From positions 62,001 to 126,000 of the forward strand of contig NZ_JAHKRR010000009.1 of assembly GCF_018863395.1 (NCBI RefSeq): a stretch of 64,000 nt of DNA, in the 5' to 3' direction. The notes under the pieces were generated by a model. The model saw only the letters and a program-made list of their open reading frames with translations, did not search any database and was not told the DNA's origin. Each line of letters opens with the position of its first letter. Position 1 is the stretch's first letter. This document shows, piece by piece, positions 41,401 to 45,899 of the stretch. Origin of the DNA: Sinomicrobium weinanense. Lineage in GTDB: Bacteria; Bacteroidota; Bacteroidia; Flavobacteriales; Flavobacteriaceae. The position numbers were made by a program, and so were the translations under genes.

Positions 41401-41592
41401 CTATTGTTTCTTGTCGCTTTCGGGAGCAGCTTCGTCTTCCTTGGAGGCATTTTTAAATTCCTTTATACCGCTTCCAAGACCTCGCATCAGTTCAGGTATC
41501 TTCCTACCGCCGAAAAGGAGCAACAGTACGACAACGATCAATATGATCTGTGGAGCACCGATCATCCCTAAAAAAATATTCAATGACATCAT
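41401..41592 (-). CDS. tatA: Twin-arginine translocase TatA/TatE
   Basis: 63 residues: one N-terminal transmembrane helix ([19 protein letters not shown]), then the amphipathic helix [19 protein letters not shown] with the conserved F-G-G-R-K-I-P hinge, and a charged tail. Forms the pore of the Tat system for folded proteins. TatC is not adjacent. Convergent with tex. Confidence 0.93.
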
Positions 41593-41686
41593 TTTTAATT
41601 ACATTTACTGTAACAAAGGTAATAAGAAAAGTTTAATCGAGGCGTTAATTATTATAATTTTAAGAATAGCGGTATATATAGAACGC

Positions 41687-41695
41687 TATATTTGC
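41687..41695 (+). promoter_or_regulatory. -7 promoter box for the M23 gene (near-leaderless)
   Basis: TATATTTGC matches the consensus and ends only 7 bases before the ATG at 41703, predicting a transcript that begins at or just before the start codon. Confidence 0.6.
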
Positions 41696-41702
41696 AGGAA
41701 TT

Positions 41703-42587
41703 ATGTCAGAAAGCAAACCGAAAAGAAAGAAACTTGCAAAAAAGCTGTTACACAAGTATCGGCTGGTCATTCTCAATGAAGATACTTTCGAAGAGCGGCT
41801 TTCCTTTAGGCTGAACAGGCTTAATGTTTTTGTTGTAGGTACTTCCTTTGCTGTTTTTCTGATTGCCATCACCACAATGTTCATCGCTTTTACTCCTTTG
41901 CGTGAATACATCCCCGGATATTCGTCCACAGAACTGAAAAGGCAGGTAGCCGATCTTACCTTTAAGACCGATTCACTGGTGAATGTACTGGATTACAACG
42001 ACCGCTATATAGAGAATGTCAAGAGAGTACTTACCGGGGAAGTAAGCCCGGCGGATATGGATGCCGAGGCTTTGGAGGATTCCCTGACCAAAGAAAAAGA
42101 AAGGCCCGACCCTTCCGAAGTGGATCTCAGTCCCGGGAAGGAAGATCTTGCCCTACGGGAAGAAGTGGCCCTGGAAGACAAGTACAATCTGGTAGGAAAG
42201 AGCCTGTCTAAGGTGAATTTTGTACTGTTTCCCCCGGTTTCCGGCGCCATATCAAACGCGTATAACCTGGAAGAAAAACACTTTGCCGTAGATATCCCCG
42301 GAGCTTCCGGCACCCCGGTAAAGGCTGCTGCGGACGGAATTGTTATCTTTGCCGAATGGACGGTAGAAACCGGCTACGTATGTATCATAGAACATTCTTT
42401 CGGCCTTATATCAGTGTATAAGCACAACGGATCCCTGAGCAAATCGCAGGGAGAGCTTGTCAAAGCGGGAGAAGTCATCGCCACTATGGGAAATACGGGC
42501 GAACTGACTACCGGGCCACATCTGCACTTTGAATTGTGGAGCAACGGCTATCCCGTAAATCCCACGGATTATATAGATTTCGACTAA
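41703..42587 (+). CDS. M23 (LytM) peptidoglycan endopeptidase, membrane anchored
   Basis: 294 residues. Basic cytoplasmic N-terminus (KPKRKKLAKK), one transmembrane helix (about 43-62), a coiled-coil linker (about 75-150) and a LytM domain at about 190-290. Metal ligands are seen in HFAVD and GPHLHFEL, with TMGNTGELTTGPHLHFELW typical. The order N-terminal anchor, coiled coil, LytM resembles EnvC/ NlpD-type division regulators or DD-endopeptidases. tatA lies just upstream, divergently. An AbiF unit follows. Confidence 0.9.
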   Translation: MSESKPKRKKLAKKLLHKYRLVILNEDTFEERLSFRLNRLNVFVVGTSFAVFLIAITTMFIAFTPLREYIPGYSSTELKRQVADLTFKTDSLVNVLDYNDRYIENVKRVLTGEVSPADMDAEALEDSLTKEKERPDPSEVDLSPGKEDLALREEVALEDKYNLVGKSLSKVNFVLFPPVSGAISNAYNLEEKHFAVDIPGASGTPVKAAADGIVIFAEWTVETGYVCIIEHSFGLISVYKHNGSLSKSQGELVKAGEVIATMGNTGELTTGPHLHFELWSNGYPVNPTDYIDFD

Positions 42588-42624
42588 GGCTTATGAACAT
42601 GATTAAAAAGTGGTATATTTTTTG

Positions 42625-42632
42625 TACCTTTG
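42625..42632 (+). promoter_or_regulatory. -7 promoter box of the AbiF leader RNA
   Basis: TACCTTTG fits TAnnTTTG exactly and lies 38 bases after the M23 stop. Transcription would begin near 42638. No TTTG at -33 is clear. Confidence 0.55.
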
Positions 42633-42638
42633 TACTAA

Positions 42639-42750
42639 CAGTACACACCACGCTACCCATAAGAACAGCGTCCCAGGGTGTGTCTTTTGTTTTTAGAATA
42701 TCCTGATAATTAATAACTTCGTCAGACTTTGGTTTGACGGAGTTTTTTAT
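42639..42750 (+). ncRNA. Candidate abiF-type structured RNA
   Basis: About 112 bases between the promoter box and a terminator, with no ORF. ACACACC (42643-42649) pairs with GGTGTGT (42677-42683). Inside, ACGCT (42650-42654) pairs with AGCGT (42667-42671) around a 12-base loop. It ends in the terminator hairpin at 42715-42750. A conserved structured RNA upstream of abiF genes is known (the abiF RNA motif), and recent work treats AbiF with this RNA as an RNA-based toxin-antitoxin related to Cas13 ancestry. I recognise the arrangement, not a checked covariance match. Confidence 0.6.
42715..42750 (+). terminator. Intrinsic terminator between the leader RNA and the abiF gene
   Basis: AACTTCGTCA pairs with TGACGGAGTT (one mismatch) around a 10-base loop and runs into TTTTTTATTTTT. 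It ends only 10 bases before the abiF ATG, so most transcripts would stop there as free RNA and a minority would read into the gene. Confidence 0.8.
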
Positions 42751-42759
42751 TTTTAAAAG

Positions 42760-43677
42760 ATGTTTGATAAAGAAGCCACAACTATTGAAGAGCAAATAAA
42801 ATTGCTTAGAAGAAGAGGGTTGAGTATACATCCGGAAGATGATGCGGAACATTATTTATCTCATATCAGTTATTACAGATTGGGAGAGTATTGGTATGTA
42901 ATGCAATCGGATAAGGAAAAGCATATTTTTAAACCGGACAGTAAATTTTCCGATGTTATTGCTTTGTATAATTTCGACAGTGAATTACGCCTGTTACTTT
43001 TTGGAGTTATCGAAAAGTTGGAAATCAGCCTGCGGACCAAACTTATTTATCATTTGTCTCACGAATTTGATCCCTGGTGGTTTCAAAACTTCAACCTTTT
43101 CAATGACAGTATATCCCTGGTGAAAACACTGTCCGGAATAGAAGAGGAGATTACCAGGAGCAAAGATATTACCATAAAAAATCACAAAAAAAAACACAAA
43201 AATGACAAAAGGTTTCCTCCTTCGTGGAAAAGTTTGGAACAGACCAGTTTCGGAGCCTTGTCCAAACTATACGGAAACCTCAAAAATACGATTGAGTCCA
43301 AAGATATTATAGCGAAAGAATTTGGTGCGGTAAATCATACTTATCTGCCAAGTTGGTTACAGTCCATTACGCAAATTCGCAATTATTGTGCACACCATTC
43401 CCGGTTGTGGAACAAGAATTTACCCGGTGCACCGAAATTGCTATCCGATCCACCCTTTTATTGGGTGTCTAACGTCCCGAAGCAACATGAATTTCAAAAG
43501 CTGTATGTTCATTTGTGTATTATGAAATATTTACTGAATATTGTTCAACCGGGAAATACCTTCACAGAAAACCTGCACGAATTAATGCAAAAGTATTCTA
43601 ATATAGACGAGAATGCTTTGGGAATAAAGCCTGAATGGACCAAAGAGCCATTATGGCGTTACAGCAAAAAGCATTAA
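42760..43677 (+). CDS. AbiF/AbiD-family HEPN protein (Abi_2)
   Basis: 305 residues of the Abi_2 family, abortive-infection proteins. Conserved blocks: EEQIKLLRRRGLSI, YLSHISYYRLGEYWYVM, LYNFDSELRLLLFGVIEKLEISLRTKLIYHLS, and the HEPN RNase motif R207-x4-H212 in ITQIRNYCAHHSRLWNK. It is expected to cleave RNA when triggered, stopping growth during phage infection. Base composition is more A/T-rich than the flanking genes (for example the poly-A stretch near 43186-43206), and it sits between M23 and GH3-like genes, both core. The upstream RNA and terminator give the layout of an RNA antitoxin followed by its toxin. Confidence 0.88.
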   Translation: MFDKEATTIEEQIKLLRRRGLSIHPEDDAEHYLSHISYYRLGEYWYVMQSDKEKHIFKPDSKFSDVIALYNFDSELRLLLFGVIEKLEISLRTKLIYHLSHEFDPWWFQNFNLFNDSISLVKTLSGIEEEITRSKDITIKNHKKKHKNDKRFPPSWKSLEQTSFGALSKLYGNLKNTIESKDIIAKEFGAVNHTYLPSWLQSITQIRNYCAHHSRLWNKNLPGAPKLLSDPPFYWVSNVPKQHEFQKLYVHLCIMKYLLNIVQPGNTFTENLHELMQKYSNIDENALGIKPEWTKEPLWRYSKKH

Positions 43678-43743
43678 TATTCAAAATGTCTATGAAGGCC
43701 TTGACGGTTTGTATTAATTTTATCGATTTGCCAAATCAGGAAT

Positions 43744-45240
43744 ATGTCATTAAAATCCTTTGCTGCAAAAATATTTGCAAAGACCACCTGCAATAAGATT
43801 CAAAAATGGGCAGCCCGCCCCGTGGAAACCCAGGAAAAGGTATTCCGGGAACTGATCGCCTCGGCTGCACCTTCTGCATTCGGAAAAGATCACGATTTCA
43901 GCAGCATCAAAAACCATGAAGATTTCGTAAAAAGGGTCCCCGTACGCGACTATGAGGCATTGAGGCCCTATATAGACCGTATGGTGGAAGGGGAGGAAGA
44001 TGTGCTCTGGAAAGGCAAGCCCCTGTATTTTGCCAAGACCTCCGGGACGACTTCCGGGGCCAAGTACATCCCCCTCACGGCCGATTCCATGCCCTATCAT
44101 ATTCAGGCAGCGCGGAATGCCATCCTGTGCTACATCAACGAAACGGGAAATACGCGTTTTGTGGATGGTAAGATGATCTTCCTGCAGGGCAGCCCCATAC
44201 TGAATGAAAAGAACGGCATAAAGCTGGGGCGTTTATCCGGGATCGTGGCCCACTATGTCCCCAAATACCTGCAAAAGAACCGTATGCCCAGCTGGGAAAC
44301 CAACTGTATAGAAGACTGGGAAACCAAGGTCAATGCCATAGTGGAAGAAACCCTGAAAGAAGATATGACGGTGATAAGCGGCATCCCTTCCTGGGTGCAG
44401 ATGTATTTTGAAAAACTTCAGGCCAGAACAGGCAATAAGGTCGGTGATATTTTTAAGAACTTCCGGCTTTTTATTTATGGCGGAGTGAATTATGAACCCT
44501 ACCGGGCAAAGTTTGAGCAGCTTATCGGGAGAAAGGTAGACAGTATTGAACTTTTTCCTGCCAGCGAGGGATTTTTTGCCTATCAGGATTCGCAGAAAGA
44601 AAAAGGGATGTTGTTACAACTCGATTCCGGGATCTTTTACGAATTTATCAGGGCAGATGAATTTTTTGAGGAAAACCCGGAACGGCTCACCATAAAAGAT
44701 GTAAGAACCGGGGTCAATTATGTAATGATCATTTCCACCAATGCCGGGCTGTGGGCCTATAACCTGGGCGATACCGTTCAGTTTACCTCGCTTAAGCCCT
44801 ACCGGGTAGTGGTTTCGGGCAGGATAAAACATTTTACCTCTGCTTTCGGTGAGCACGTCATAGCCAAGGAAGTGGAGGAGGCCATGAGGCAGGCCATCGA
44901 AAGTTTCGGGGTCAGCATTAATGAGTTTACCGTAGCTCCCCAGACCGAGCCCGGGGAAGGCGGGCTCCCTTATCACGAATGGCTGGTAGAGTTTGAAAAG
45001 GAGCCCGAAAACCTGGCAGACTTTGCCCTGAAAATAGACCGGGCCCTGCAAGAGCAGAACAGCTACTATTACGACCTTATCGCCGGAAATATATTACAAC
45101 CCCTGAAGATCACGAAAATAAAAAAAGACGGTTTTACCGGCTATATGAAAAGCGTGGGCAAGCTGGGTGGGCAGAACAAGGTGCAACGCCTGTCCAACGA
45201 CCGTAAACTCGCCGAAGAATTATATAAATACAAAGTTTAA
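43744..45240 (+). CDS. GH3-family adenylate-forming enzyme
   Basis: 498 residues of the GH3 family, named for plant auxin-amino acid ligases. YFAKTSGTTSGAKYIPLT is the ATP-binding P-loop, FPASEGFFAYQ and VMIISTNAGLWAYNLGDTVQFTSLKPYRVVVSGRIKHFTSAFGEHV the adenylation core. Bacterial members would activate carboxylates and couple them to amines or amino acids; native substrates are not known in Bacteroidota. No signal peptide. A short AT-rich gap separates it from the AbiF unit. Confidence 0.9.
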   Translation: MSLKSFAAKIFAKTTCNKIQKWAARPVETQEKVFRELIASAAPSAFGKDHDFSSIKNHEDFVKRVPVRDYEALRPYIDRMVEGEEDVLWKGKPLYFAKTSGTTSGAKYIPLTADSMPYHIQAARNAILCYINETGNTRFVDGKMIFLQGSPILNEKNGIKLGRLSGIVAHYVPKYLQKNRMPSWETNCIEDWETKVNAIVEETLKEDMTVISGIPSWVQMYFEKLQARTGNKVGDIFKNFRLFIYGGVNYEPYRAKFEQLIGRKVDSIELFPASEGFFAYQDSQKEKGMLLQLDSGIFYEFIRADEFFEENPERLTIKDVRTGVNYVMIISTNAGLWAYNLGDTVQFTSLKPYRVVVSGRIKHFTSAFGEHVIAKEVEEAMRQAIESFGVSINEFTVAPQTEPGEGGLPYHEWLVEFEKEPENLADFALKIDRALQEQNSYYYDLIAGNILQPLKITKIKKDGFTGYMKSVGKLGGQNKVQRLSNDRKLAEELYKYKV

Positions 45241-45260
45241 CCCAAATAAATTATCAGACT

Positions 45261-45899
45261 ATGCGTACAGGATTATTGATTTTTGCATTGTTGGTTTTGC
45301 TGTTATTTCAAAGTTGTGCTTCAGGGAATATTTCTGATCATAAGATAAAGGAACCGTCAAGAATATATAATAAAGTGGCTGTTGTGTGGACAACATCGAA
45401 AAATGACATCACTAAACTCAACGATGAGACTTATAATGAGTCTTTTCGTGGAAAGTTTAACGATCTGGACGGTGCAAAGTACAGGAAACAATTAGAAAAA
45501 ACCTTTATCAGGAATATGTTTCCAACTAAAGGAATTGCTTCCGGGGATTTGTTCGATATTAACAAGGATTACGATTATAAAGAGTTTATAGATATAATAA
45601 AAACTTCCGGAGCCGAGGCCGTTTTGGTTATAAAAAGAGTGTCCTGGGAACAAACGCAGCATATAGATGGCGTAGATGGGGATATCAGTACCAGATACGA
45701 ACCCAATGCCAGGTTTCATATCTATCTTATAGACATGGCTACACTGGAAAACCAGTGGATAGCGACCTCTTCCGTAGAGGGTGATTTTTATGCAGGCTAT
45801 GGGACCGTAAATAATAATCTGGCCCGTAAGGTGATAAGAAAATTGCGCAAGGAGCGGTATATAGCAGGTAAGGAACTGAAAAGAATGATGAGTAACTAA
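45261..45899 (+). CDS. Uncharacterised lipoprotein
   Basis: 212 residues; signal peptide with lipobox FQS-C19. Mature section contains a Rossmann-like pattern (RIYNKVAVVWTTSKND ... IIKTSGAEAVLVIKRVSW) and DIST..YEPNARFHIYLIDMATLENQW, resembling the periplasmic lipoproteins that assemble near envelope complexes. No family recognised. Starts 20 bases after the GH3-like gene, so probably in one operon with it. Confidence 0.6.
   Translation: MRTGLLIFALLVLLLFQSCASGNISDHKIKEPSRIYNKVAVVWTTSKNDITKLNDETYNESFRGKFNDLDGAKYRKQLEKTFIRNMFPTKGIASGDLFDINKDYDYKEFIDIIKTSGAEAVLVIKRVSWEQTQHIDGVDGDISTRYEPNARFHIYLIDMATLENQWIATSSVEGDFYAGYGTVNNNLARKVIRKLRKERYIAGKELKRMMSN

Follow-up and report, generated by a model that had tools for sequence, protein, structure and literature searches.

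The 64,000-nt stretch of Sinomicrobium weinanense DNA analysed here (the window) carries an abiF gene situated between the genes of an M23 peptidase and a GH3-family protein, and preceded by a leader that can be folded into hairpins. From the letters of the sequence alone this had been read as an RNA antitoxin followed by its toxin, inserted between two core genes. This raises the question of whether the leader encodes an RNA belonging to the toxin, or only a control element of the gene, and whether the two arrived together.

The protein encoded at 42760–43677

The gene, starting with the ATG at 42760 as previously assigned, covers positions 42760–43677 (+ strand) and encodes 305 amino acids. 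In Pfam it aligned with the full Abi_2 profile (PF07751, 1–184 of 184, 5.6e-54), PADLOC classified it as AbiD (1.1e-73) and the top PDB sequence match in phmmer was 8VZ6 (2.7e-54). An AlphaFold2 model with 39 homologues as input (pLDDT 92.6) superimposed on 8VZ6, the PbAbiF dimer with its ncRNA, over 293 residues (Z 29.8, rmsd 2.1 Å, 35% identity). The next family-relevant fold match, EsCas13d, was weak (Z 6.2), and PDB matches ranking under it were taken as noise. The HEPN catalytic motif RNYCAH (R207 to H212, positions 43378–43395, + strand), whose R207 and H212 had been correctly recognised in the sequence-only reading, is invariant in that R207, N208 and H212 are the same in 134 of 134 homologues. 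The equivalents of the catalytic pair are R202/H207 in AbiFCd, required for toxicity, and R210/H215 in PbAbiF, required for activity (PMC12373285). Judged by profile, motif and predicted fold, the product is a member of the AbiD/F (Abi_2) HEPN proteins and, by family, a putative ribonuclease toxin.

A conserved hairpin in the leader

Leaders of homologues, taken from genome contigs and from whole-genome searches, share one nearly fixed element, AACAGUACACACCACGCUACCCAUAAGAACAGCGUCCCAGGGUGUGUCUUUUGCUUU, whose copy in the window is located at 42637–42694 (+ strand). The two nested stems that had been proposed were borne out both by the fold (MFE z -4.1 for the leader segment 42633–42759) and by covariation, but the segment of ~112 bases first assigned to the RNA is too long; since the second hairpin and its Ts are found in just 20 of the 79 leaders, the conserved unit is taken to be one hairpin of ~58 nt. 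Its structure, as supported by fold and covariation, consists of an outer stem (42643–42649/42677–42683) and an inner stem (42650–42654/42667–42671), together with an apical loop (42655–42666), a 3' bulge with the sequence CCCAG (42672–42676) and a U-rich tail (42684–42694), all on the + strand. A pairing between the 5' AACAG and the tail, present in the MFE fold, is without conservation and is not included in this structure.

In 57 close sequences, no two of them identical, pairing over the 12 pairs of the hairpin reached 98.8% and clear double changes were seen, with one pair appearing as A-U, U-A, U-G and G-C and another replaced from A-U to G-C in 22 sequences. When the alignment was extended to 90 distinct sequences, 97.8% of the cells were paired, two-sided compensatory changes were found at 11 of the 12 base pairs and the covariation score was 0.383 versus 0.130 (sd 0.008) for shuffled alignments and at most 0.055 with the partner slid, this alignment having been fitted to the structure, which favours its score. 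Part of the covariation could stem from selection for a terminator hairpin alone. The unpaired bases (5' AACAGUAC, bulge and loop) are conserved as strongly as the stem. A covariance model built here, R1, gives the window copy 88.2 bits and recovers divergent versions of the RNA too. In twelve loci (L014, L017, L018, L033, L034, L039, L041, L049, L074, L077, L088 and L091) the apical loop carries lineage-specific extra hairpins of unlike sequence, the remaining RNA being unchanged.

Promoter box and termination

The promoter box pointed out at 42625 is present as TACCTTTG (42625–42632, + strand), a putative TAnnTTTG box of the RNA/abiF transcript proposed from its sequence and conservation. 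Of 79 distinct homologous leaders, 73 contain TAnnTTTG and 70 have it exactly 4 nt ahead of the first conserved A of the RNA, a fixed spacing from which the 5' end of the RNA is predicted at ~42636–42637. At the other end the outer stem is followed directly by CUUUUGUUUUU, for which the consensus among homologues is CUUUUGYUUUU, and most of the 79 homologous leaders have no further terminator between the RNA hairpin and the ATG; we infer that the RNA hairpin itself ends transcription. The strong intrinsic terminator described in the sequence-only reading (42715–42755, + strand) does exist, with a 13-bp stem (42715–42744), a 4-nt loop and a T-run, but must be regarded as accessory, a second hairpin followed by Ts occurring in 20 of 79 leaders, about a quarter, that of the window included. 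It was also considered as a degenerate second antitoxin motif and, for the window, rejected, as it gave 9.4 bits to the RNA model R2 and matched in the stem only.

Relation to the abiF RNA in Rfam

The check with the Rfam abiF covariance model (RF03085, gathering threshold 37 bits), suggested beforehand, revealed no match in the leader, and at E ≤ 10 the genome as a whole contained none either, while the positive controls were matched; relatives of PbAbiF (L190–L192) gave 52.7–59.8 bits and the C. difficile phage phiC2 locus (L220) 37.6 bits. Rfam matches to Yfr10, L10_leader, STnc180, SNORD38 and SmY were all far under gathering and were dismissed as chance. The RF03085 RNA resembles that of the window in its position upstream of abiF and in its topology, with an outer stem that encloses a short inner G-C stem, the loop and a 3' bulge, but differs in sequence, the leader being unmatched by its model. 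On sequence grounds the window RNA is a distinct class of similar topology, absent from Rfam and found across Bacteroidota. RF03085 used alone thus misses the AbiF systems of the clade to which the window belongs, and a second, widespread class of AbiF RNA with near-invariant bases can now be detected by a covariance model.

Distribution of RNA and toxin

The RNA is located upstream of all 85 distinct AbiFs of the R1 clade, the close relatives, that have readable upstream DNA. When the RNA class, labelled from sequence patterns (the 'Rfam' label of L218 is a pattern artefact), was mapped on a tree built from 75 AbiF proteins, it changed 15 times compared with 44.1 times when shuffled, and 0 of 200 shuffles were as low. 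With clades defined as one side of a branch, the R1 class has a support of 98 and R1c of 94, in a quick tree whose deep branching is uncertain and in which T2 and R1b, among the smaller classes, are scattered. The RNA classes largely follow the AbiF protein clades. An Abi_2 group without recognisable leader RNA also forms one side of a branch (support 100).

An Abi_2 clade with the motif RNxC(A/S)H and no recognisable leader RNA (L008, L009, L010, L011 and L116) is found in two congeners of the genome studied here as well. In four loci (L104, L208, L209 and L074), perhaps also in L067, a single abiF is preceded by a tandem of AbiF-type RNA hairpins, two in number and each of another class, which recalls the two motifs of RCd22 in C. 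difficile. Many R1-class abiF genes (L015, L016, L020, L021, L024 and others) are situated downstream of a ~1.2-kb ORF on the same strand.

A search with R1 in 397 genomes of the family and 395 of the class gave 42 places, one of which (L142, E 0.0056) was taken as a chance hit, having neither a promoter nor any trace of abiF. Among the other 41, AbiF is intact in 31 and lost or broken in 10, a proportion that is inflated and not an unbiased rate because R1 searches favour intact RNAs (the count of 85 of 85 is unaffected). Remnants of abiF were identified at seven of the ten toxin-less loci: solely the C-terminal end is left in L130 and L141 and solely the N-terminal start in L139 and L186, the gene has an internal deletion in L184 and it is frameshifted in L176 and L177, while L132, L173 and L187 have no trace of abiF beside the RNA. 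No Abi_2 gene was found anywhere in the genomes G372, G201 and G255. Promoter and hairpin are retained in L130, L132, L173 and L187; in L139 and L141 the RNA is decaying too. The sequence-only reading had held that finding this leader in genomes without abiF would argue against an RNA antitoxin. Such leaders do occur, at these ten loci, but they do not refute the antitoxin, because a toxin lost and an antitoxin kept is what a toxin-antitoxin pair predicts. The asymmetry of loss seen in these sequences, the toxin never without the RNA and the RNA sometimes without the toxin, fits that expected of an antitoxin.

In L132 (1431–1558, - strand), from a genome without an Abi_2 gene, a HigBA-like pair and hsdR flank two AbiF-type RNAs in tandem, one of the R1 class and then one of a GCCUC...GCACAC class; the promoter box of the R1 copy is kept and both hairpins look intact. 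In L012 (1767–1822, - strand) an AbiF-type RNA is located right before a fragment of ~100 aa matching the C-terminal part of AbiF alone.

Insertion and genomic context

When comparing the five other genomes of the genus, the M23 and GH3 genes were adjacent in all five, with a spacer of 56–71 bp and nothing between, and the RNA of the window was absent from each of them. The flanking genes had been named correctly and the suspected insertion is confirmed by this empty site; within its genus this genome alone has acquired the unit at the M23-GH3 junction, and the inserted segment covers approximately 42588–43724. The A/T-richness attributed to abiF was found as well, its GC content being 37.0% compared with 45.2% in the window, which puts it among the 2.5% of 918-nt windows with the least GC.

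At this locus housekeeping genes are found on either side and there is no defence island. In other genomes genes of defence or mobility are frequent neighbours of the unit: 100 neighbouring proteins of relatives, scanned with no background set, include type I R-M HsdS, Eco57I, PD-(D/E)XK, Piwi and integrase, and abiF seems often to be nested in hsd operons since 14 of the 100 were type I R-M specificity subunits. Relatives with less than 60% identity were found on plasmids and phages; the viral contigs searched contained no relatives.

Interpretation of the locus

The layout originally proposed, an RNA followed by its toxin, is supported by the identity of the toxin, by the RNA and by the gene order, and the locus is very probably a toxin-antitoxin unit of AbiF protein and RNA that was acquired horizontally. 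Against this reading speak the missing match to the Rfam abiF model and the place of the locus among housekeeping genes, outside any defence island. From homologues we infer toxicity, binding and neutralisation by the RNA, and attenuation. In such a unit a single promoter would give a short structured RNA, made in excess; most transcripts would end at the RNA's own hairpin and U-tail or at the accessory terminator and only read-through would produce the abiF mRNA. AbiF would recognise the RNA by its invariant unpaired bases (5' AACAGU, 3' bulge and loop), and the hairpin, bound to the HEPN dimer, would block the RNase site, the same hairpin restraining synthesis of the toxin in cis. If the balance is upset, by loss of the element or by some phage trigger, free AbiF may cut RNA and growth would stop, to the benefit of sister cells or of the stability of the element.

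The leader might instead be only a cis-acting attenuator, with a terminator hairpin that lowers abiF expression and no antitoxin action in trans. The hairpin is indeed followed by CUUUUGUUUUU, most homologous leaders lack another terminator before the ATG, and RCd22 works partly through premature termination (PMC12373285). Termination, however, needs none of the unpaired bases (5' AACAGUAC, bulge and loop) that are conserved like the stem, the RNA class tracks the protein clade, the window has an extra strong terminator and orphan RNAs retain promoter and hairpin with no toxin downstream, all of which makes attenuation alone an improbable explanation. Still less probable is a role of the RNA not as an inhibitor but, in the manner of Cas13, as a guide or sensor by which AbiF would be directed at specific RNAs. 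For this speak the proposal of AbiD/F as ancestor of the Cas13 HEPN domains (PMC12165695, PMC12737573), the second, weak structural match to EsCas13d (Z 6.2) and an apical loop tolerating lineage-specific hairpin insertions. Yet the RNA has no hypervariable, spacer-like segment, its sequence being nearly fixed across the R1 clade, neither repeats nor an array were found around the locus, and in the most closely related AbiFs that have been characterised the RNA inhibits the protein (PMC12373285, PMC12737573). That the insertion is degenerate or silent, an unused remnant intact in appearance, would agree with its isolated place among housekeeping genes and its acquisition in this genome alone within the genus, but is hardly to be expected of a full-length ORF with all conserved residues, an RNA scoring 88.2 bits to R1 and a promoter at canonical spacing.

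Within the reading as a toxin-antitoxin unit a wider suggestion can tentatively be made, namely that this phylum-wide AbiF antitoxin RNA, absent from Rfam, is both an inhibitor of the toxin and a terminator limiting its synthesis, and that orphans with an intact promoter, in one genome two RNA classes in tandem with no AbiF, might then by themselves confer immunity against AbiF elements entering the cell. The natural orphan and tandem copies, together with the covariance model, make the requirements of inhibition of AbiF by RNA directly testable, and likewise the action of the RNA in trans on foreign AbiF. RNA-guided Cas13 has been proposed to originate from AbiF-RNA pairs.

Comparison with known systems

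Type III toxin-antitoxin systems (ToxIN, TenpIN and CptIN) likewise have an RNA gene, a terminator and an RNase toxin on one transcript, but their toxin fold is unrelated and the window RNA has no tandem repeats; none of the repeats expected of a type III antitoxin were found in 41500–45300. Cas13 shares the HEPN RNase and is proposed to descend from AbiD/F (PMC12165695), whereas the window AbiF has a single HEPN domain and matches it weakly (Z 6.2), with no CRISPR or other repeat array in 41500–45300.

The resemblance to PbAbiF (8VZ6, from a Prevotellaceae bacterium) extends over the whole length of the protein fold and the HEPN residues, and relatives of PbAbiF (L190–L194) also have an RNA hairpin immediately ahead of abiF. 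PbAbiF is inhibited by its RNA (PMC12373285, PMC12737573), but the RNAs of its relatives are of the RF03085 type (GCCUCUUAACAAUGCUCAAAU) while the conserved sequence in the window RNA is CGCUACCCAUAAGAACAGCGUCCCAG. In AbiFCd-RCd22 of Clostridioides difficile, where experiments have demonstrated that the toxin is toxic, that the RNA rescues in cis as well as in trans and binds directly, and that termination occurs, the promoter, structured RNA, terminator and abiF follow in the same order and the catalytic R/H pair is shared (PMC12373285). The dual action of that system (PMC12373285), attenuation and neutralisation, would by analogy be expected for the window unit. RCd22 differs in having two RF03085 motifs in ~98–132 nt, compared with one hairpin of another class in the window (PMC12373285), and the protein identity is about 30% (phiC2). 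The experimentally studied examples of AbiF named in the papers cited here carry RNA of the RF03085 type, RCd22 by its Rfam match and PbAbiF by way of the relatives analysed here. AbiF-RNA pairs are already known as anti-virus or toxin-antitoxin units; what is new, relative to Rfam, is this class of RNA.
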